Shown: positions 17,470 through 42,720 of the stretch, in pieces
Layout: every line of letters starts with the position of its first letter
Numbering within the stretch: the stretch's first letter is position 1
Assembly: GCA_021791195.1 (NCBI GenBank)
Contig: JAJYXB010000007.1
Location: 62,001-126,000, forward strand
Direction of reading: 5' to 3'
Origin: Actinomycetes bacterium
GTDB lineage: Bacteria > Actinomycetota > Thermoleophilia > BMS3ABIN01
DNA: 64,000 bases
Translations under genes and position numbers: made by a program
Notes under the pieces: model-generated
The model's input: the letters and a program-made list of their open reading frames with translations, nothing else
Told to the model about the DNA's origin: nothing
Databases searched by the model: none

Positions 17470-19872
17470 ATGGAAAAGAAAATCGGAGTATATATCTGTT
17501 CCGACTGCGGCATCGGCGAGGCTCTCGACCTGGAGGCGCTTGAGAAGGTCGGGAAGAACGAATATAGCGCCGCGGCAGTCAGATCAGCGCCGTTCCTCTG
17601 CAGCCAGGAGGGCGCGCAGCTGATCAAGGATGACATCAACAACGAGGGCATCAACACCATCGTCATCGCCGCGTGTTCCGCGCGCGTCAACACCGATGCC
17701 TTCGATTTCGATCCCGCCCAGTACATTACCGAACGGGTGAATCTGCGCGAGCACGTTGTCTGGACCCAGCAGCCGCGGGCAGCGGCAGAGGCCGAAGCTG
17801 CCGCTCCTGAAGAGGCGCCGGCCGAGGCCGCCGCAGAGGGCGAAGCGGAAGCTCCCGCTGGCGAGGCTGCTGCCCCGGCAGAGACCGCCGAGGCCGCACC
17901 GGAAGCGCCGGCCGAGGAAACCGGTCCGCAGGTGAATGAGAATACCCAGGAGATGGCCGAAGACCATCTGCGGATGGGCATCGTCCGCGCCCGTGCCAGT
18001 GAACCGCCTGAGCCTCACATCGAGGAACTCAACAAGACCATCCTCGTCATCGGCGGCGGTCCCACCGGTCTTACCAGCGCACTGCAGTCAGCGGCCGCCG
18101 GCTACGACGTGGTGCTGGTGGAAAAAGAGGCCCAGCTGGGCGGCTGGGGCAAGAAGATGTACAAACTCATGCCGGACAAGGCGCCGTTCGCCGAGTCCCG
18201 CAAGCCCGACATCGACAACAAGATCCAGGCCGTCGAAGCCAGCGGCAAGATCCGCGTGATCATGAATGCGGAAATCGAGAAGACCGCCGGCGAGCCCGGC
18301 AAATACAAGGTGACGGTCAAGAGCAACGGCAGCTCCGAAACGCTGGACATCGGCACCATTGTCCTGGCCATCGGCTGGAAGCCGTATAACGCCAACCGGC
18401 TGGAGCATCTCGGCTACGGCAAATTCAGGAATGTCGTCACAAACGTGGAGATGGAGCAGATCGCCATCGACGGCAGCGGCACTATCGCCCGGCCTTCCGA
18501 CGGCAAGCAGGCCACCCGGGTAGCTTTCCTGCAATGCGCCGGACAGCGCGACCCGGAGCACCTGCCTTACTGCTCATCGGTCTGCTGCCTGACCTCTCTC
18601 AAGCAGGCGCTTTACGTCACTGAAAGCAACAGGGACGCGGCCGCGTTCATCGTCTACAAGGACATGCGCACGCCCGGGCTCTATGAAGAGTTCTACAAGA
18701 CGGCGCAGAACAACCCCGGCGTCATGCTGACCAAGGGAGAAATCACCAGCATCACCGAGGACGCGTCAGGCAACATCATCCTCGAGATCGACAACACCAT
18801 CCTCGGCGAAAAAGTGATGGTTGTGGCCGACATGCTGGTGCTGGCCACCGGCATGGTCACCAACGCGCTGCCGGCGCACGTCGAAGGCGTCACGGACCTG
18901 ACGCCGGAGTACGTCGGCTCGTGGCGCGAGACCGAGACCGTCGACGGCATCATCAAGGAGGTCGTGGCCGACCCGGTCGTGCTCAACCTGGAATACCGCC
19001 AGGGTCCGGAGCTGCCATATCTGAAGTACGGCTTCCCGGATTCGCATTTCATCTGCTTCCCGTACGAGACGCGCAGGACCGGCATCTACACCGCGGGCGC
19101 GGTACGCCACCCGATGACGGCGATGCAGGCCGCCAACGACGGCACCGGCGCCGCCCTCAAGGCGATCCAGTGCCTGGAGCTGGCCTCCAGAGGCATGGCG
19201 GTGCATCCACGCTCCGGCGACCAGTCGTTCCCGGAGATCAACTACACCAACTGCACCCAGTGCCGGCGCTGCACGGTGGAGTGTCCGTTCGGCGTCCTGG
19301 ACGAGGAGGAGAACGGTACGCCGAAGACCAACACTTTCCGCTGCCGCCGCTGCGGCACGTGCATGGGCGCCTGTCCACAGAGGATCATCTCTTTCAAGAA
19401 CTACAGCGTGGAAATGATTGCCTCGCAGATGAAGGCGATCAAGGTGCCGGAGGAAGACAGCAAACCGCGTATTATCGCGCTCATTTGCGAGAACGACGCC
19501 TACCCGGCGATCGACATCGCCGGCCTCAACCGGCTCAGCATCAGTCCCTTCTACAGGTTCATCACCATGCGGTGTCTGGGCGGGACCAACCTGGTTTGGA
19601 TCGCCGACGCGCTGTCGGCCGGCATCGAGGGCTTCCTCCTGATCGGCTGCCGCTTCGACGACGACTATCAGTGCCATTTCGTCAAGGGCAGCAAGGCGGC
19701 CAATGAACGGCTCGGCAAGGTACAGGAGACTCTCGGCCGGCTGATGCTCGAGTCTGAACGGGTCACCCAGGTACAGCTTGCCTTGAACGAATGGGACAAG
19801 CTTCCGCAGATCATGGAAGACTTTGCTGGAAAGCTGAAGGAATTCGGACCTAACCCGTTCAAGGGATTCTAG
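17470..19872 (+). CDS. qmoB: Quinone-interacting membrane-bound oxidoreductase subunit B
   Basis: An 800-residue HdrA-like protein fused to an MvhD-like domain. Residues 1-100 are a small domain with DCGIGEAL and ACSARV segments. Residues 102-154 are an Ala/Glu/Pro-rich linker. An FAD domain begins with VIGGGPTGLTSA. Two ferredoxin motifs, CTQCRRCTVECP and CRRCGTCMGACP, precede the C-terminal MvhD-like domain with ICENDAYP and GCRFDDDYQC. It probably shuttles electrons between the soluble partner and QmoC. The linker is longer and of lower complexity than I would expect for this subunit. Confidence 0.93.
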   Translation: MEKKIGVYICSDCGIGEALDLEALEKVGKNEYSAAAVRSAPFLCSQEGAQLIKDDINNEGINTIVIAACSARVNTDAFDFDPAQYITERVNLREHVVWTQQPRAAAEAEAAAPEEAPAEAAAEGEAEAPAGEAAAPAETAEAAPEAPAEETGPQVNENTQEMAEDHLRMGIVRARASEPPEPHIEELNKTILVIGGGPTGLTSALQSAAAGYDVVLVEKEAQLGGWGKKMYKLMPDKAPFAESRKPDIDNKIQAVEASGKIRVIMNAEIEKTAGEPGKYKVTVKSNGSSETLDIGTIVLAIGWKPYNANRLEHLGYGKFRNVVTNVEMEQIAIDGSGTIARPSDGKQATRVAFLQCAGQRDPEHLPYCSSVCCLTSLKQALYVTESNRDAAAFIVYKDMRTPGLYEEFYKTAQNNPGVMLTKGEITSITEDASGNIILEIDNTILGEKVMVVADMLVLATGMVTNALPAHVEGVTDLTPEYVGSWRETETVDGIIKEVVADPVVLNLEYRQGPELPYLKYGFPDSHFICFPYETRRTGIYTAGAVRHPMTAMQAANDGTGAALKAIQCLELASRGMAVHPRSGDQSFPEINYTNCTQCRRCTVECPFGVLDEEENGTPKTNTFRCRRCGTCMGACPQRIISFKNYSVEMIASQMKAIKVPEEDSKPRIIALICENDAYPAIDIAGLNRLSISPFYRFITMRCLGGTNLVWIADALSAGIEGFLLIGCRFDDDYQCHFVKGSKAANERLGKVQETLGRLMLESERVTQVQLALNEWDKLPQIMEDFAGKLKEFGPNPFKGF

Positions 19873-21346: not shown

Positions 21347-22234
21347 ATGGTTTCTCTGAACAACAAGGCTGTAATTCCGACGAAATACGAGCTCGACTCC
21401 GGGTTCAAGTTCCGCTGCCATCCCGGCATCTCCTGTTTCACGCGTTGCTGCCGCAACATCGAGGTGCTGCTGACGCCATACGATGTCGTCAGGATGAAGA
21501 ACCGCCTCGGCTTGAGCAGCACCGAGTTCCTGGCGCGTTATACGCGTTACCAGGAAGATGAGAAGACGACGCATCCGCTGGCTTTCCTGAAGATGAACGA
21601 GGACGGCGAGAGACTCTGCCCCTTCGTCGACGAGAAGGAAGGATGCAGGATCTACGAGGACCGGCCGGCGGCCTGCCGCTACTATCCTGTCGGTCAGGCC
21701 ACGCACCGGGTGGCTGGCGAGAAGCCCGACGAGGCGGTCCACGATGAATTCTACGTCATCGTCAAGGAGGAGCACTGCCGCGGTTTCGAGGAAGACCGGC
21801 AGTGGACCATCAGGGAATGGCGCGAAGATCAGGAGGCTGCCCGCGCGGACGAGTTCAACCGCGAGTGGAAGAACATCATGATGAAGCAGAACATCCCCCG
21901 CGACGACGAAGACAGGGAGCGGCGGCAGAAGATGTTCTACCTGGCCAGCTACGATCTGGATGCTTTCCGCCGCTTTGTGCTGGAAAGCCGTTTCCTGGAG
22001 ATATTCGATGTCGCACCCGAAAAGCATCAGAAGATCCGGGACGACGAGCTCGAGCTGATGTACTTCGCCTTTGATTACATCAAGTATATGCTCGGCATCG
22101 CGCAGGAAGTCAGGCTGAAGCCGCATGTAGCCGAGGAGCGCCGCCGCGCGGTGGAACAGGTCAAGGCGAGGGAGGAAGCGGAACGCGCCGCGCGTGTAGC
22201 GGCGGCCAGCGCCGAAGAAGAGCCGAAGGGCTAG
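21347..22234 (+). CDS. YkgJ-family cysteine-cluster protein
   Basis: A 295-residue protein with two cysteine groups: CHPGISCFTRCC near residue 26 and CPFVDEKEGC...RPAACRYYP near 90. This pattern defines the YkgJ/UPF0153 zinc-or-iron-chelating family, whose biochemical role is not established. The C-terminal half is charged, with a long helical tail rich in Arg, Glu and Ala. The ATG at 21347 is chosen because it places the first cysteine at the usual distance. It overlaps the end of the convergent VKOR-like gene by four bases and has its own upstream region after the qmo terminator. Confidence 0.8.
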   Translation: MVSLNNKAVIPTKYELDSGFKFRCHPGISCFTRCCRNIEVLLTPYDVVRMKNRLGLSSTEFLARYTRYQEDEKTTHPLAFLKMNEDGERLCPFVDEKEGCRIYEDRPAACRYYPVGQATHRVAGEKPDEAVHDEFYVIVKEEHCRGFEEDRQWTIREWREDQEAARADEFNREWKNIMMKQNIPRDDEDRERRQKMFYLASYDLDAFRRFVLESRFLEIFDVAPEKHQKIRDDELELMYFAFDYIKYMLGIAQEVRLKPHVAEERRRAVEQVKAREEAERAARVAAASAEEEPKG

Positions 22235-22686
22235 GTTCTGCCGGAGGCCTGCCGCGTCCTGCTCAGTCCGGCCGCCGCCGTAACTGTGGTGGCCGTCACC
22301 AGCGCCAGCGAGGTGACGCATAGCGGGCAGACAGCTTTGATGACAAATAACTCCACGTAGGTCAGCCACAATGAGAAAGCCAGCGCCAAAACGCCGGCTG
22401 TGGCGATTGCCAGCATCAGCCAGCGGCGCCACGCCGGCTTCAGGAGCGCTGTCAGCGCTCCGGCACCGATGAGGATATAACCGGCCATGCCGATGGCCGC
22501 CACCGGAATTCCCAGCAGCACGGAATAATCACTCTGATTAACCGCCGTGCAGCTGACCGTGGCATTGATGTCACACGACGATTCCAGGGGTGGCGCGTAA
22601 TGCTGGTTCAGGGCATAGCCGGCATCAGCGATCCCCGCCAGCGCCAGTACCGAGATGATTGTCAGGATGATTTTCATGCCCGCCAT
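22231..22686 (-). CDS. VKOR-family quinone-linked thiol oxidoreductase
   Basis: A 151-residue membrane protein with about four helices. The loop pair SSCDINATVSC near residues 35-46 and the redox motif CPLC near 118 are the conserved cysteines of vitamin K epoxide reductase homologues. Bacterial VKOR reoxidises DsbA-like thioredoxins and passes electrons to quinone, supporting disulfide formation outside the cytoplasm. No partner DsbA is fused or adjacent. The thioredoxin-like lipoprotein at 37961-38440 is a possible partner, which is inference. Confidence 0.85.
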   Translation of the reverse strand: MAGMKIILTIISVLALAGIADAGYALNQHYAPPLESSCDINATVSCTAVNQSDYSVLLGIPVAAIGMAGYILIGAGALTALLKPAWRRWLMLAIATAGVLALAFSLWLTYVELFVIKAVCPLCVTSLALVTATTVTAAAGLSRTRQASGRT

Positions 22687-37552: not shown

Positions 37553-37951
37553 ATGGAGATCAGCAGGCAGGCGGATTATGCCGTCCGCGCAGTCAGGGAG
37601 CTGGTAAAAGCGGGGCCAGGCGCATTGCTTCAGACGCGCACCATCGCCGTAAGCCAGCAGATACCGGAGAAGTATCTGCCCACCATCATCCGTACCCTGG
37701 CGCGCGCGGGGCTGCTGAGGACCCTGCGTGGAAGCCGGGGTGGAGTGGCTCTCGCCCGCCGGCCGGAGGCGATATCGGTGCTGGAGGTGGTGGAGGCGAT
37801 CGATGGACCTGTACTGCTGAACCGCTGCAAAATCAGGCCGGGAGAATGCAGTCGAGGCGGGGAGCCGTGCGCTCTCCATAATTTTTGGGACGGCCTGATG
37901 AACGAAGTCCGCAACCGGATGGGTAGGGTCAGCTTCGATGAACTGACTTAG
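37553..37951 (+). CDS. Rrf2-family transcriptional regulator with iron-sulfur ligands
   Basis: A 132-residue Rrf2 regulator. The winged helix-turn-helix is in residues 1-65 (MEISRQADYAVRAVREL and the wing LRGSRGGVALARRP). The cysteines CKIRPGECSRGGEPC have C-x6-C-x6-C spacing, placed as the [2Fe-2S] ligands of IscR or NsrR. It may sense redox state, iron-sulfur status or NO. It is preceded by a good promoter and is convergent with the selenoprotein-like gene, the stops being ten bases apart. The regulated genes are unknown. Confidence 0.87.
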   Translation: MEISRQADYAVRAVRELVKAGPGALLQTRTIAVSQQIPEKYLPTIIRTLARAGLLRTLRGSRGGVALARRPEAISVLEVVEAIDGPVLLNRCKIRPGECSRGGEPCALHNFWDGLMNEVRNRMGRVSFDELT

Positions 37952-37960
37952 CGGGGTCGC

Positions 37961-38440
37961 TTAAGAGGAGCTGGTGCTTGTCGTGGGGATGGTCGGCGTC
38001 CTGCCGGCCAGCAGATCGTTCAGCATCGTTTCCAGCTGGTCCTGCGGCAGGAAGGTATCCGTGGTGGCCACCTGGTTGCCCTTGGCGTCGTAATAGATGA
38101 TCGCCGGCACGTGCTCAACCCCGATCTTGGTCAGCTGGCACTGATTGGCGGGCTGCGTCAGGTCGAATGTATAGATATCGATCTTCCCTTTATATTTCTG
38201 TTCTAGCGCATCAACGATGGGCTTCTCACGTTGGCAGAAAGGTCAGGTAGGGATGAAGAATTCCACCATCATCGGGCGCCCCTGAGTTTTGGGGATAACG
38301 CTGGGAGCGGCCGCGCACTCCGGCGAAACGGTGATTGCCGCGGTGGTGGTGGTAGAGCCGCAGCCCGCGGAAAAAACAGCCAGAGCAGCAAATAAAGCGG
38401 CGGCGGCAAAAAATGCGAGAAGTCTGATTCGCTTGGTCAT
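37961..38440 (-). CDS. Thioredoxin-like lipoprotein, probable selenoprotein (UxxC)
   Basis: The reading frame of 159 residues is continuous only if the in-frame TGA at 38245-38243 is read through. Residues 1-27 are a lipoprotein signal with SAGC as lipobox. After VEFFIPT the TGA occupies the first redox position and PFC follows, giving U-P-F-C in place of C-x-x-C. The rest keeps the thioredoxin fold, including a cis-Pro segment HVPAIIYYD. A SECIS-like stem-loop starts just after the TGA. The alternative is a nonsense-mutated pseudogene, but the downstream frame is intact and the TGA sits exactly at the catalytic Cys. Confidence 0.72.
38195..38242 (-). promoter_or_regulatory. Bacterial SECIS-like stem-loop
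   Basis: In the RNA just downstream of the UGA, CAACG (38233-38229) pairs with CGUUG (38216-38212) around a 12-base loop containing G residues. UUUCUG (38240-38235) pairs with CAGAAA (38200-38195). The apical loop is 15-26 bases after the UGA, the usual position for bacterial SECIS elements. Confidence 0.5.
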
Positions 38441-38512: not shown

Positions 38513-39325
38513 CTAATCCAGATCCCTTTTGCCGAAAACCGTCACCACCAGCAGCAACAGCGCTCCGATGTAAACGATCTCATAAAGGAAAGACCAGCCG
38601 CGGGGAATCAGGTACGCGGGTGTTATCGGCGTAGTCCGGGGCCTGAACCGGAGGAGCCGGCGCATCTGGTCGCCCACCTCACCGACGGGCAGCGACAGCC
38701 GGAACAGGTTGCCCACGATCCGCATTCCGATGCCATCGCCGGCGCCGGCGATGTTCAGCAGGCTCAGGCTCGCCGTCACCCCGAATATGAGAAAGGCGAA
38801 GATGGCGTTTGCGGTTGCGGGCATGAATACGGAGATGGCGTAAGTCAGCGTTACCATGGTCACCACGTTGAGACAGGCAAGCCCCAGTGCCGGGATGTAG
38901 CTCCAGAAAGGCTGACCGGTATCAAGCGCGACCGTGAGCCAGAGGGAGAGGCCGACAATGAGCACGTAGCCGGTCATCAGCAGCGCGTAACCGGCCCATC
39001 TGCCAATGATCACCTGGCTGCGACGCATCGGCTTGGTGACGAGGGTTGCCATCATGCCGCGCTCGATCTCGTCATGGACGGAGCCCAGCGAGACGAATAC
39101 CGCCATAAACATGCCGATCAGGTTCAGGCCGCCCAAGGCGAAATTGAGAAACTGGGCGCCGGCGATGCCCCTGTCGCCGGCGCCGGCCATGGCGCCACCA
39201 CCGCCGGCGGTGCTGAGCAGCGGGATGACCGCCAGGTAGAGCAGGCTAACAGCCAGACCGGCAATCATGCTTTTTGACCTGAGCGTGTGCCTGACCGTAT
39301 AAATAGCGAGCGCACGCGTCTTCAT
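38513..39325 (-). CDS. ABC-2 type transporter permease
   Basis: A 270-residue membrane protein with about six helices and a GMMATLVTKPMRRSQ cytoplasmic loop, as in ABC-2 permeases that follow a CcmA-type ATPase. The start overlaps the end of the ATPase gene by four bases, which fixes the pair. Substrate is unknown; related pairs export drugs, lipids or peptides. The first 40 residues contain one long hydrophobic helix after KTRALAIYTVRHTLR. Confidence 0.82.
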   Translation of the reverse strand: MKTRALAIYTVRHTLRSKSMIAGLAVSLLYLAVIPLLSTAGGGGAMAGAGDRGIAGAQFLNFALGGLNLIGMFMAVFVSLGSVHDEIERGMMATLVTKPMRRSQVIIGRWAGYALLMTGYVLIVGLSLWLTVALDTGQPFWSYIPALGLACLNVVTMVTLTYAISVFMPATANAIFAFLIFGVTASLSLLNIAGAGDGIGMRIVGNLFRLSLPVGEVGDQMRRLLRFRPRTTPITPAYLIPRGWSFLYEIVYIGALLLLVVTVFGKRDLD

Positions 39326-40251
39326 GATCGTTCGGCCGCCGCGATCTCTTCGAGGAATGCCGCTTCCAGCGTCATGTTGCGCGGTGATAATTCCCTGAGC
39401 ACGGCGCCACTCGTGGTGATTATCTCGACCAGCCGCGCGATCTCCTCATCGTTCCCCAGCATCGCAGTGAAACTGCCACCAGCCAAAAAATCCACCTTAG
39501 CCGCCAGTTCCTCGATGCTTGCCATTGCCTCAGCGGAGAGCCCGTCGGTCTTCACATCCACCACCTGCACCGGCCTGATGATCGCTCCCATCTCGCCGAT
39601 CCGGATCAGACGGCCGCGGTTCATGATTCCGATGCGGGTGCAGATCATCTCCACTTCGGACAACAGGTGGGAGTTGATGAGGACGGTGGTGCCGCGGTTA
39701 CGCATGCGGATGATGATATCCCGCAGGTCGCGGCGGCCGATGGGGTCGAGCGCCGAAGCCGGCTCATCCAAAAGCAGCAGCTCCGGCTCGTTGATAATCG
39801 CCTGGGCAAGCGCCATCCGCTGCATCATCCCGCGCGAAAAATTCCTTACGCGTGATTCCGCGCTCTCTTTCAATCCCGTCTGTTCCAGGACATCAGCGAC
39901 TTTTTGCCGCCGCCGGGCGGCGCCCATGCCGTACAGGCGCGCGTGGAAGTCCAGATATTCGGCTGCGCGCATGAAGGTGTTCATGCTGATCGATTCGGGA
40001 AGATAGCCGATCCGCACCCTGGTCTGAACGTGGCCGACGGGGTTGCCCAGCAGCGAAGCCGAACCGGAGCTGGGGAAGACCAGGCCGGCCAGCATCTTGA
40101 TCGTCGTCGTCTTGCCGGCGCCGTTGGGTCCCAGAAGGCCGAAAATCTCGCCGGACGCGACGGTCAGGCTTAGCCCGTCGACCGGCGTAACCGAACCGCT
40201 CCCGGCGCCATAGGTCTTGGTCAGACCTTCAATTTCGATTGCAGCCCGCAT
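39322..40251 (-). CDS. ABC transporter ATP-binding protein
   Basis: A 309-residue CcmA/DrrA-type ATPase. Walker A is GPNGAGKTT near residue 39, the signature is FSRGMMQRM near 136, and Walker B is LLLLDEP near 156. A C-terminal regulatory domain follows. It drives the adjacent permease (38513-39325). The start is ATG with GGGGGGTA ahead. The substrate is not determined. Confidence 0.9.
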   Translation of the reverse strand: MRAAIEIEGLTKTYGAGSGSVTPVDGLSLTVASGEIFGLLGPNGAGKTTTIKMLAGLVFPSSGSASLLGNPVGHVQTRVRIGYLPESISMNTFMRAAEYLDFHARLYGMGAARRRQKVADVLEQTGLKESAESRVRNFSRGMMQRMALAQAIINEPELLLLDEPASALDPIGRRDLRDIIIRMRNRGTTVLINSHLLSEVEMICTRIGIMNRGRLIRIGEMGAIIRPVQVVDVKTDGLSAEAMASIEELAAKVDFLAGGSFTAMLGNDEEIARLVEIITTSGAVLRELSPRNMTLEAAFLEEIAAAERS

Positions 40252-40503: not shown

Positions 40504-41532
40504 TTAGGGCTTAAGGCCGGAGACAGGCGCGGTCTGCACTCCCGTTGGGGTTGCGCTTGTCTTTGAAGCGTCCGTCCGGGGCGAATAATCTTCCGCGTAT
40601 TCGATGTCAGCGCTCTGATGAACCTGGTTGGAGAAGTCCTTGTAGTGTTGCGCGAGCTTCTGGTTCGCCAGATCCTGCTTCAACTGGGCCTTGACCTGGT
40701 CGAAGGTCTGGTTCTGGGCCGGCTGGATCAGGTCAACCTTGACGATGTACCAGTTCGTCCCCGACTGGAAGGCGCCCGAGGTCTCGCCGGTCTTCAGCGC
40801 AAATGCCTGCTGGCCAACTGCCGGCGGCAGGGCGCTCTGCTCGACGAGCCCCACGAGGCCGCCCTTGCTCTTTGTGCCCGCGTCTACCGAAACCTGGCCG
40901 GCTACCGTGGCGAAGTCTTCGCCACTCGATATCTGCGCCAGCGCCTGCTGCGCCGCCTGCTGGCTGGTAGTCACTATCTGACGGACCTGGCGCCGCTCCG
41001 GATGCACGTAATTGGCCTTGCCCTGGTTGTAGGCGGCCTGGACGTCGGCGTCACTCACCGGCACCTCCGCCTTGAGTGAGTCCATTAGCTTCTGGCGCAA
41101 CAGAGTCAGCTTCAGGTTCTCGCGCAGATCGTCCACGGTGATATTACGCTTCTTGAAATCATCTTCCATCTTCTGCTCGTTGCCGTAATACTGGTCTTCA
41201 ACCACCTGCGCGAGCGCCTTGTTGACCTCGTCGGCGCTCACGGAGATGTTTCGTTTGGCCGTCTCCTGCAGCAACAGCTGTTCAGCCACCAACTCCGTGG
41301 TGACATCCCGCTGGATATCGTTATAAGCCTTGCTTTTCGTATCGGAGGGCACGAAGCCGGGCGACATGCCGGCTATGACCCGGATCCGGTTCGTGACGGC
41401 ATCCTTGGTGATAATTTCGCCATTGACCGAGGCGGCGGCGTTATCTGGCAGACTACTGCAACCCATCAAGGCAATTAATGCCAAAAACAGAACCACTCCC
41501 ACGCCCGCTAATAACAGCAGTTTCCTGATCAT
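40504..41532 (-). CDS. PrsA/SurA-type peptidyl-prolyl isomerase lipoprotein
   Basis: A 342-residue exported foldase. The N-terminal signal ends in the lipobox LMGC near residue 24, so it is probably lipid-anchored outside the membrane. SurA-N-like helices fill residues 35-170, and a parvulin (rotamase) domain lies about 180-270, with RQVRQIVT at the start and GGLVGLVEQSALP inside. It helps secreted proteins fold. A Thr/Ser-rich tail follows. No partner gene is adjacent. Confidence 0.88.
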   Translation of the reverse strand: MIRKLLLLAGVGVVLFLALIALMGCSSLPDNAAASVNGEIITKDAVTNRIRVIAGMSPGFVPSDTKSKAYNDIQRDVTTELVAEQLLLQETAKRNISVSADEVNKALAQVVEDQYYGNEQKMEDDFKKRNITVDDLRENLKLTLLRQKLMDSLKAEVPVSDADVQAAYNQGKANYVHPERRQVRQIVTTSQQAAQQALAQISSGEDFATVAGQVSVDAGTKSKGGLVGLVEQSALPPAVGQQAFALKTGETSGAFQSGTNWYIVKVDLIQPAQNQTFDQVKAQLKQDLANQKLAQHYKDFSNQVHQSADIEYAEDYSPRTDASKTSATPTGVQTAPVSGLKP

Positions 41533-41989: not shown

Positions 41990-42244
41990 ATGGGAGAAGT
42001 AATTGACGTAAAACCCGATTCAGTTCTTGATGTAAAGGGACTCTGCTGCCCGATGCCTGTCGTCAAGGCAAAAAAGGCGATGGAGACCATCGAGGTAGGC
42101 CAGGTGCTGGAGATCGTCGGCACCGATGCCGGCTCCAAGGGGGACATGCCCGCATGGGCAAAACGGGCCGGTCATGAATTCCTCGGTTCCACCGAGGAAG
42201 AGGGGGGAGAAGTATTCCACTTCTTCGTAAGGAAAGGAAAGTGA
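41990..42244 (+). CDS. tusA: TusA-family sulfur carrier
   Basis: An 84-residue TusA-fold protein with the motif LCCPMPVVK, so Cys20 in CPMP is the expected sulfur carrier. A second Cys lies directly before it. The ATG follows GGGAGGATAG. It is paired with the DsrE2-type gene eight bases downstream, a pairing known in sulfur oxidisers, and ends at a rho-independent terminator after that gene. It differs clearly from the copies at 24624 and 56402. Confidence 0.93.
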   Translation: MGEVIDVKPDSVLDVKGLCCPMPVVKAKKAMETIEVGQVLEIVGTDAGSKGDMPAWAKRAGHEFLGSTEEEGGEVFHFFVRKGK

Positions 42245-42252
42245 TCCAATAA

Positions 42253-42720
42253 ATGGCTAAAAGACTGGCCATCATCGCGTCAAAGGGGACCCTGGACATG
42301 GCATACCCGCCGCTGATTCTGGCGAGCACTGCTGCCGCCCTGGACATGGAATGCGGCATATTTTTCACCTTTTACGGTCTGGATATTATCAACAAGAAGA
42401 AATATGCCAACCTGAAGGTGGCGCCGATCGCCAATCCGGCGATGCCGGTTTCGGTTCCCAACATCGTCGGCATGCTGCCGGGGATGACATCGATGGCGAC
42501 GAAGATGATGAACGGGATGATAAAGAAGGCCAACGTGCCTTCCATCCCCGAATTCATCGATGTGTGCCTCGAAAGCGGGGTCAAGATGTGGCCCTGCCAG
42601 CTGACGCTGGACATGATGGGCATCAAACCGGAAGACCTGATCGAGGGGATCGACGCCTCTGTCGGCGCCGCACATTTTATTGATTACGCAGCCGACGCGG
42701 ACATGAGCCTCTTCATCTGA
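42253..42720 (+). CDS. dsrE2: DsrE2A-like sulfurtransferase
   Basis: A 155-residue protein with a DsrE/F/H-like fold. It opens KRLAIIASKGTLDMAYPPLI and has cysteines 34, 105 and 115, the latter two in FIDVCLESGVKMWPC. A hydrophobic and Gly/Met-rich middle around residues 68-90 is typical of DsrE2A, which may be membrane-associated. Such proteins pass sulfane sulfur with TusA in sHdr- and Dsr-type oxidisers. A terminator follows after 23 bases, so tusA-dsrE2A is a two-gene operon. Confidence 0.88.
   Translation: MAKRLAIIASKGTLDMAYPPLILASTAAALDMECGIFFTFYGLDIINKKKYANLKVAPIANPAMPVSVPNIVGMLPGMTSMATKMMNGMIKKANVPSIPEFIDVCLESGVKMWPCQLTLDMMGIKPEDLIEGIDASVGAAHFIDYAADADMSLFI

Follow-up and report, generated by a model that had tools for sequence, protein, structure and literature searches.

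Thioredoxin-like selenoproteins with a UxxC motif, in which selenocysteine (Sec, U) stands where a CxxC thioredoxin has its first Cys, are an already known kind. Table 1 of PMC13188914 lists a Sec-containing thioredoxin (Trx, UxxC, PF00085) as well as selenoproteins described as thiol:disulfide interchange proteins (PF13098, UxxC). In addition, SaoT (NF040730), TsoX (NF045809) and TUGYCR (NF053656) are small thioredoxin-like selenoproteins, and ResA, StoA and TlpA have a membrane-anchored extracytoplasmic thioredoxin domain that contains Cys, not Sec.

The gene studied here lies in the window, by which we mean the whole stretch of 64,000 nucleotides that was analysed. Its product resembles the Sec-containing thioredoxin in its thioredoxin fold, its UxxC in place of CxxC and its cis-Pro, and PF00085 is its best Pfam match; however, it adds a signal peptide and a lipobox, and it reaches 37.3 bits against the NCBIfam thioredoxin equivalog TIGR01068, far below the cut-off of 96.8. 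With the interchange proteins, a loose group to which it is likened by description and by a PF13098 match just over the cut-off (29.5 bits versus 27), it shares the UxxC motif and a predicted exchange activity. Although SaoT, TsoX and TUGYCR are comparable in size and fold, the present family falls below their cut-offs (17.4 of 65 bits for the window protein against SaoT; weak matches of some members to the other two), and the profile matches to ResA, StoA and TlpA are weak, with scores far below the cut-offs. No NCBIfam model reached its cut-off for the window protein or for ten members from the wider sample, and we found no paper on a Sec-thioredoxin lipoprotein family in the open-access literature. 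The family of UxxC thioredoxin-like selenoproteins described here is real and is new within the known kind, and it is so far unnamed within the literature and models that we searched.

The gene and its product

The minus-strand frame from 38440 to 37961 begins with ATG, ends with TAA and contains a single internal stop, the TGA at codon 66 (Table 1). When this codon is read as U, the product is MTKRIRLLAFFAAAALFAALAVFSAGCGS...MMVEFFIPT-U-PFCQREKPIVDALEQKY...GVEHVPAIIYYDAKG... up to the terminal stop. The initial annotation had identified the TGA with the first Cys of a thioredoxin CxxC motif, and this identification is borne out by the frame, by the UPFC motif and by the match to PF00085 (Thioredoxin), which begins before the TGA and ends after it (residues 54-141, E=2e-10). 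The claim of intact coding after the TGA also stands as regards the frame and the cis-Pro segment, HVPAI, but the count of 94 codons has to be corrected to 93 sense codons and a stop. An AlphaFold2 model based on the 16 orthologues described below has a pLDDT of 81, with the thioredoxin core (residues 57-144) at high confidence, and a Foldseek search with this model matched thioredoxins (E about 1e-6, TM by target 0.7). The thioredoxin domain with UxxC and cis-Pro places the protein in the thioredoxin fold superfamily, and the signal peptide and lipobox Cys, with C27-G28 invariant, mark it as a predicted bacterial lipoprotein; both features support the earlier suggestion of a lipid-anchored thioredoxin-like protein.

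Table 1. Coordinates of the Sec-thioredoxin gene, its elements and its neighbours in the window.
Feature	Position	Strand	Evidence
Sec-containing thioredoxin-like lipoprotein gene, 159 codons including U66	37961..38440	-	translation with TGA as U; PF00085; 16 orthologues
In-frame TGA, predicted Sec66, first position of UPFC (U66-P-F-C69)	38243..38245	-	TGA in 16/16 orthologues and 35 further homologous domains
Putative SECIS hairpin with 3 bp, a 1x1 mismatch and 4 bp; GUU loop (38213-38215), 27 nt downstream of UGA	38205..38223	-	covariation; synonymous constraint; absent from Cys homologues
Cys27 of the lipobox (SAGC), predicted to be lipidated, following a hydrophobic signal peptide	38360..38362	-	invariant in alignment; lipidation predicted from sequence
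Cys42, invariant in f1, possible partner of Cys101	38315..38317	-	absent from the f17 sister group
Cys69, Cys of UxxC	38234..38236	-	invariant in family alignment
Cys101, invariant in f1	38138..38140	-	family alignment
ABC-2 type membrane subunit, directly upstream of the Sec-thioredoxin gene	38513..39325	-	PF12679, E=9e-11; synteny
ABC ATPase, overlaps permease start, ends in ordinary UGA stop	39322..40251	-	PF00005
SurA-like / PpiC peptidyl-prolyl isomerase lipoprotein (foldase)	40504..41532	-	PF13145, PF13624
Rrf2-type regulator, convergent conserved neighbour	37553..37951	+	PF02082, E=5e-32
VKOR-family protein, wider conserved neighbourhood	22231..22686	-	PF07884, E=8e-29

Conservation of the UGA codon

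A single in-frame stop in a gene that is otherwise complete could also mean that the gene is a pseudogene, derived by nonsense mutation from an ordinary thioredoxin lipoprotein with CxxC. However, in the family sample (f1; 19 genomes, the window's own included), an orthologue occurs in 16 genomes belonging to six genera, and in all 16 the identical codon is TGA and the frame beyond it is intact, at protein identities to the window of 34-55%; neither Cys nor TAA nor TAG occurs at this codon in any of them. In total, 51 domains have a stop at this place, which is always TGA, and the codons directly after it are under synonymous constraint (see below). A pseudogene is accordingly very improbable, in line with the argument of the initial annotation against a chance nonsense mutation. 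A TGC or TGT misread as TGA would be conceivable in a draft assembly of 27 contigs, but the same TGA recurs in separate assemblies, including the public MAG contig JAJYIM010000048.1, and we give a sequencing or assembly error practically no weight. The alignment of the family is invariant at C27-G28, C42, U66, C69, C101 and P112, with U written as C. No orthologue was found in G005, G011 and G018, which are 92, 88 and 78% complete, and selA is present in all 19 genomes. A contig scan with the single window protein returned one relative, the public contig L053, which places the family in Actinomycetota.

Beyond the family, a class sample of 399 genomes contained no additional UGA form. In a phylum sample of 396 genomes, UGA forms were found in 30 more genomes from 11 other families, giving 35 domains, every one of which has TGA, always at the first position of an xxxC motif and never replaced by TAA or TAG. 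The Sec form thus amounts to 51 domains in 46 genomes and 12 families, and some genomes carry two copies. Cys occupies this place in homologues from the wider families, as the alignment proposed in the initial annotation was meant to reveal; because no Cys form is known in f1, the equivalence of U66 with Cys is taken from these more distant homologues. Cys and Sec forms coexist in f26 and f32, whereas the f1 and f17 groups have only the Sec form. Pairs of the two forms, some of them within the same family, include CPPC in G439 versus UPPC in G471 and CPPC in G501 and G627 versus UAPC in G690. A UGA kept in homologues and aligned to Cys in others is what is expected of a bacterial selenoprotein. 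A quick tree of 78 domains sets the Sec group of f17 next to the f1 group and requires six changes between Sec and Cys, at least three of them forced by well-supported branches, in a short domain for which many forks are unsettled. In one genus of f51 (L104:2245-3231, L105, L133), a rhodanese-like domain appears to precede a UPTC Sec-thioredoxin domain.

Selenocysteine machinery and UGA usage

The initial annotation had made its reading depend on the genes for Sec synthesis and insertion, and all four are present in the genome to which the window belongs (2.15 Mb, 97.5% complete). The selC gene, a tRNA-Sec with anticodon TCA (C9:38100-38191), was called by ARAGORN and lies above the Rfam cut-off; selB (C9:47153-49033, 360 bits) and selA (C9:49111-50466, 590 bits) are on the same contig, and selD (C10:58012-58944, 361 bits) itself contains an in-frame TGA close to its start. 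Across the phylum sample, selA was found in 36 of the 37 genomes with a Sec-thioredoxin, compared with 226 of 396 overall (P=9e-9, without correction for kinship). The exception is G485, which is 97% complete and has a UGA form (L136, G485:C27:80783-81190); either a missing contig or a recent loss of the machinery would account for the selA that was not found there.

That the UGA of this gene is read through would also be expected if UGA had been reassigned to Trp, Gly or Cys, with neither SelB nor a SECIS element involved. However, of the 45 long ORFs in the window, 19 terminate at TGA, among them that of the ABC ATPase, which lies two genes upstream, and therefore UGA is not globally reassigned. 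With the Sec machinery complete and the SECIS hairpin covarying, reassignment is also very improbable.

Three further observations concern TGA codons and selenoproteins in this genome. The selD gene (G000:C10:58012-58944; L018:1501-2433) is a second probable selenoprotein gene; it can form a hairpin comparable to that of the Sec-thioredoxin gene, with GUC in the apex 17 nt downstream of the TGA. A second, low-scoring TGA match (C3:41567-41875) was rejected, as it lacks a Sec/Cys active site and the TGA serves only as the terminal stop. The HdrA-like and FlpD/MvhD families are selenoproteins elsewhere; in the window, an HdrA-like protein with a C-terminal FlpD/MvhD domain (17470-19872) is encoded by an open frame without an internal TGA.

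The SECIS hairpin

According to the bacterial SECIS model of PMC13188914, the loop has 3-9 nt with a G in its first two bases, the upper stem has 4-16 bp, the spacing is 16-37 nt and the MFE is at most -7.5 kcal/mol. The putative hairpin of the window agrees with this geometry, having the loop GUU, an upper stem of 4 bp and a spacing of 27 nt. Its energy is borderline against the limit of -7.5: the MFE is -7.3 kcal/mol for 44 nt, in another fold, -9.1 for 57 nt and -4.7 for the 19-nt hairpin by itself, compared with -13 to -19 kcal/mol in the relatives. The 44 nt that follow the TGA of the window fold no better than shuffled sequences (z -0.35) and form a different structure; folding of the window by itself is not significant and is therefore not counted as evidence.

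The evidence for the hairpin comes from the comparison of homologues. When the TGA is numbered 1-3, the stem runs from pair 23-41 to pair 30-34 and the GUN loop occupies 31-33. The covariation score, computed from 50 sequences without gaps, is 0.262 versus 0.083 after shuffling; none of 500 shuffles reached 0.262, and sliding the partner by 1-3 columns gives at most 0.105; 33 cells are changed on both sides of the stem. The signal comes from pairs 27-37 (CG 33, GC 11, UA 2) and 28-36 (AU 30, CG 9, GC 7), and GU opens the loop in 48 of the 51 Sec rows. At the same place, 6.3 of the 8 positions are paired in Sec rows versus 2.5 in Cys rows. Moreover, the family alignment has seven columns with a single codon, six of which fall within the 11 codons that follow U (P=2.4e-5); in this stretch, the wobble site left free is the third loop base. 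The stem-loop reported in the initial annotation is thus real by covariation and constraint, but it was not provable from the window sequence alone, and its predicted position at 38223-38205 is owed to the comparison and not to window folding alone.

Gene neighbourhood and possible partners

The foldase (SurA_N/PpiC), ABC ATPase, ABC-2 permease and Sec-thioredoxin genes follow one another on one strand, and the convergent Rrf2 gene comes after them. Most of the family keeps this order, in some genomes with further genes in between; the locus of G001-G003 has no ABC pair, and there the foldase gene adjoins the Sec-thioredoxin gene. Near the cluster, tandem TusA-like and DsrE-like genes occupy 41990-42720 of the window, the DsrE-like gene being a conserved family neighbour.

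The initial annotation named the VKOR-family protein as a conceivable partner, and the protein might then be an oxidative selenoprotein that acts with VKOR in disulfide formation. In G002, G003, G008, G009, G010, G013 and G016, the distance between VKOR and the Sec-thioredoxin gene is 4-9 kb, and the window's genome has no PF13462-type DsbA above the cut-off. However, the two genes are 15 kb apart in the window and on different contigs in G001, G004, G006 and G007, and VKOR also occurs in G005 and G011, where no Sec-thioredoxin was found; the partnership is therefore unsupported by distribution. Furthermore, CcdA (DsbD_TM) is equally present, encoded elsewhere in the window's genome, and a UxxC centre is generally more reducing than a CxxC centre. 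We consider the oxidative role unlikely.

A role in the maturation or protection of cytochrome c or formate dehydrogenase, with reduction of haem-binding cysteines as in ResA or CcmG, is suggested by neighbours in other families. At L093:2967-4786 and L094:4552-6001, two tandem Sec-thioredoxin genes of f17 flank a gene for a multihaem protein (CxxCH x4) and adjoin a formate dehydrogenase gene with TGA in HQARI-U-H, and U-H is the usual place of Sec in formate dehydrogenase. A molybdopterin oxidoreductase-like gene adjoins the Sec-thioredoxin gene in f14, and an FdhD-like gene appears in the cluster of some f1 genomes. Nevertheless, no such gene adjoins the one in the window, and the neighbours in other families are unrelated, which makes this role quite unlikely.

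Discussion

We believe, with a probability of roughly 0.93, that the gene encodes a genuine selenoprotein, a thioredoxin-like lipoprotein. The conserved UGA, the SECIS element, the Sec machinery, the thioredoxin domain, the lipobox and the synteny were established computationally; decoding of the UGA as Sec is well supported by the sequence comparisons, and from them we infer Sec insertion, export, lipidation and catalysis of the window protein. SelB would bring Sec-tRNA(Sec) to the UGA, aided by the short hairpin with its GUN loop 27 nt downstream, and the product would be exported, cut and lipidated at Cys27. The mature protein would then lie outside the membrane, with a thioredoxin-fold domain and a Sec66-x-x-Cys69 active site, and would most likely perform thiol-disulfide (selenenylsulfide) exchange on exported proteins. 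The best reading of the product is a lipid-anchored extracytoplasmic thiol-disulfide oxidoreductase that uses Sec.

The redox direction and the partners are more speculative. The protein may work alongside the neighbouring SurA/PpiC foldase, and we would sooner think of a reductase or isomerase kept reduced through CcdA than of an oxidase, at about even odds; this speculative role and the foldase partnership draw on the neighbourhood and on general Sec chemistry. We tentatively raise, as a possibility of rather low probability, that the foldase, the ABC-2 exporter and the Sec-thioredoxin lipoprotein constitute an extracytoplasmic folding module of poorly known Actinomycetota, whose redox member is Sec only within the family and whose C42/C101 pair would relay electrons with the Sec-Cys centre.

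Automated annotation would cut this protein at residue 65. As a compact SECIS element with natural covariation, the conserved hairpin of 19 nt would be useful for studies of SelB. Because Sec and Cys forms coexist in f26 and f32 while f1 and f17 are Sec only, these proteins offer a ready system for asking why an exported thioredoxin keeps the costly Sec.
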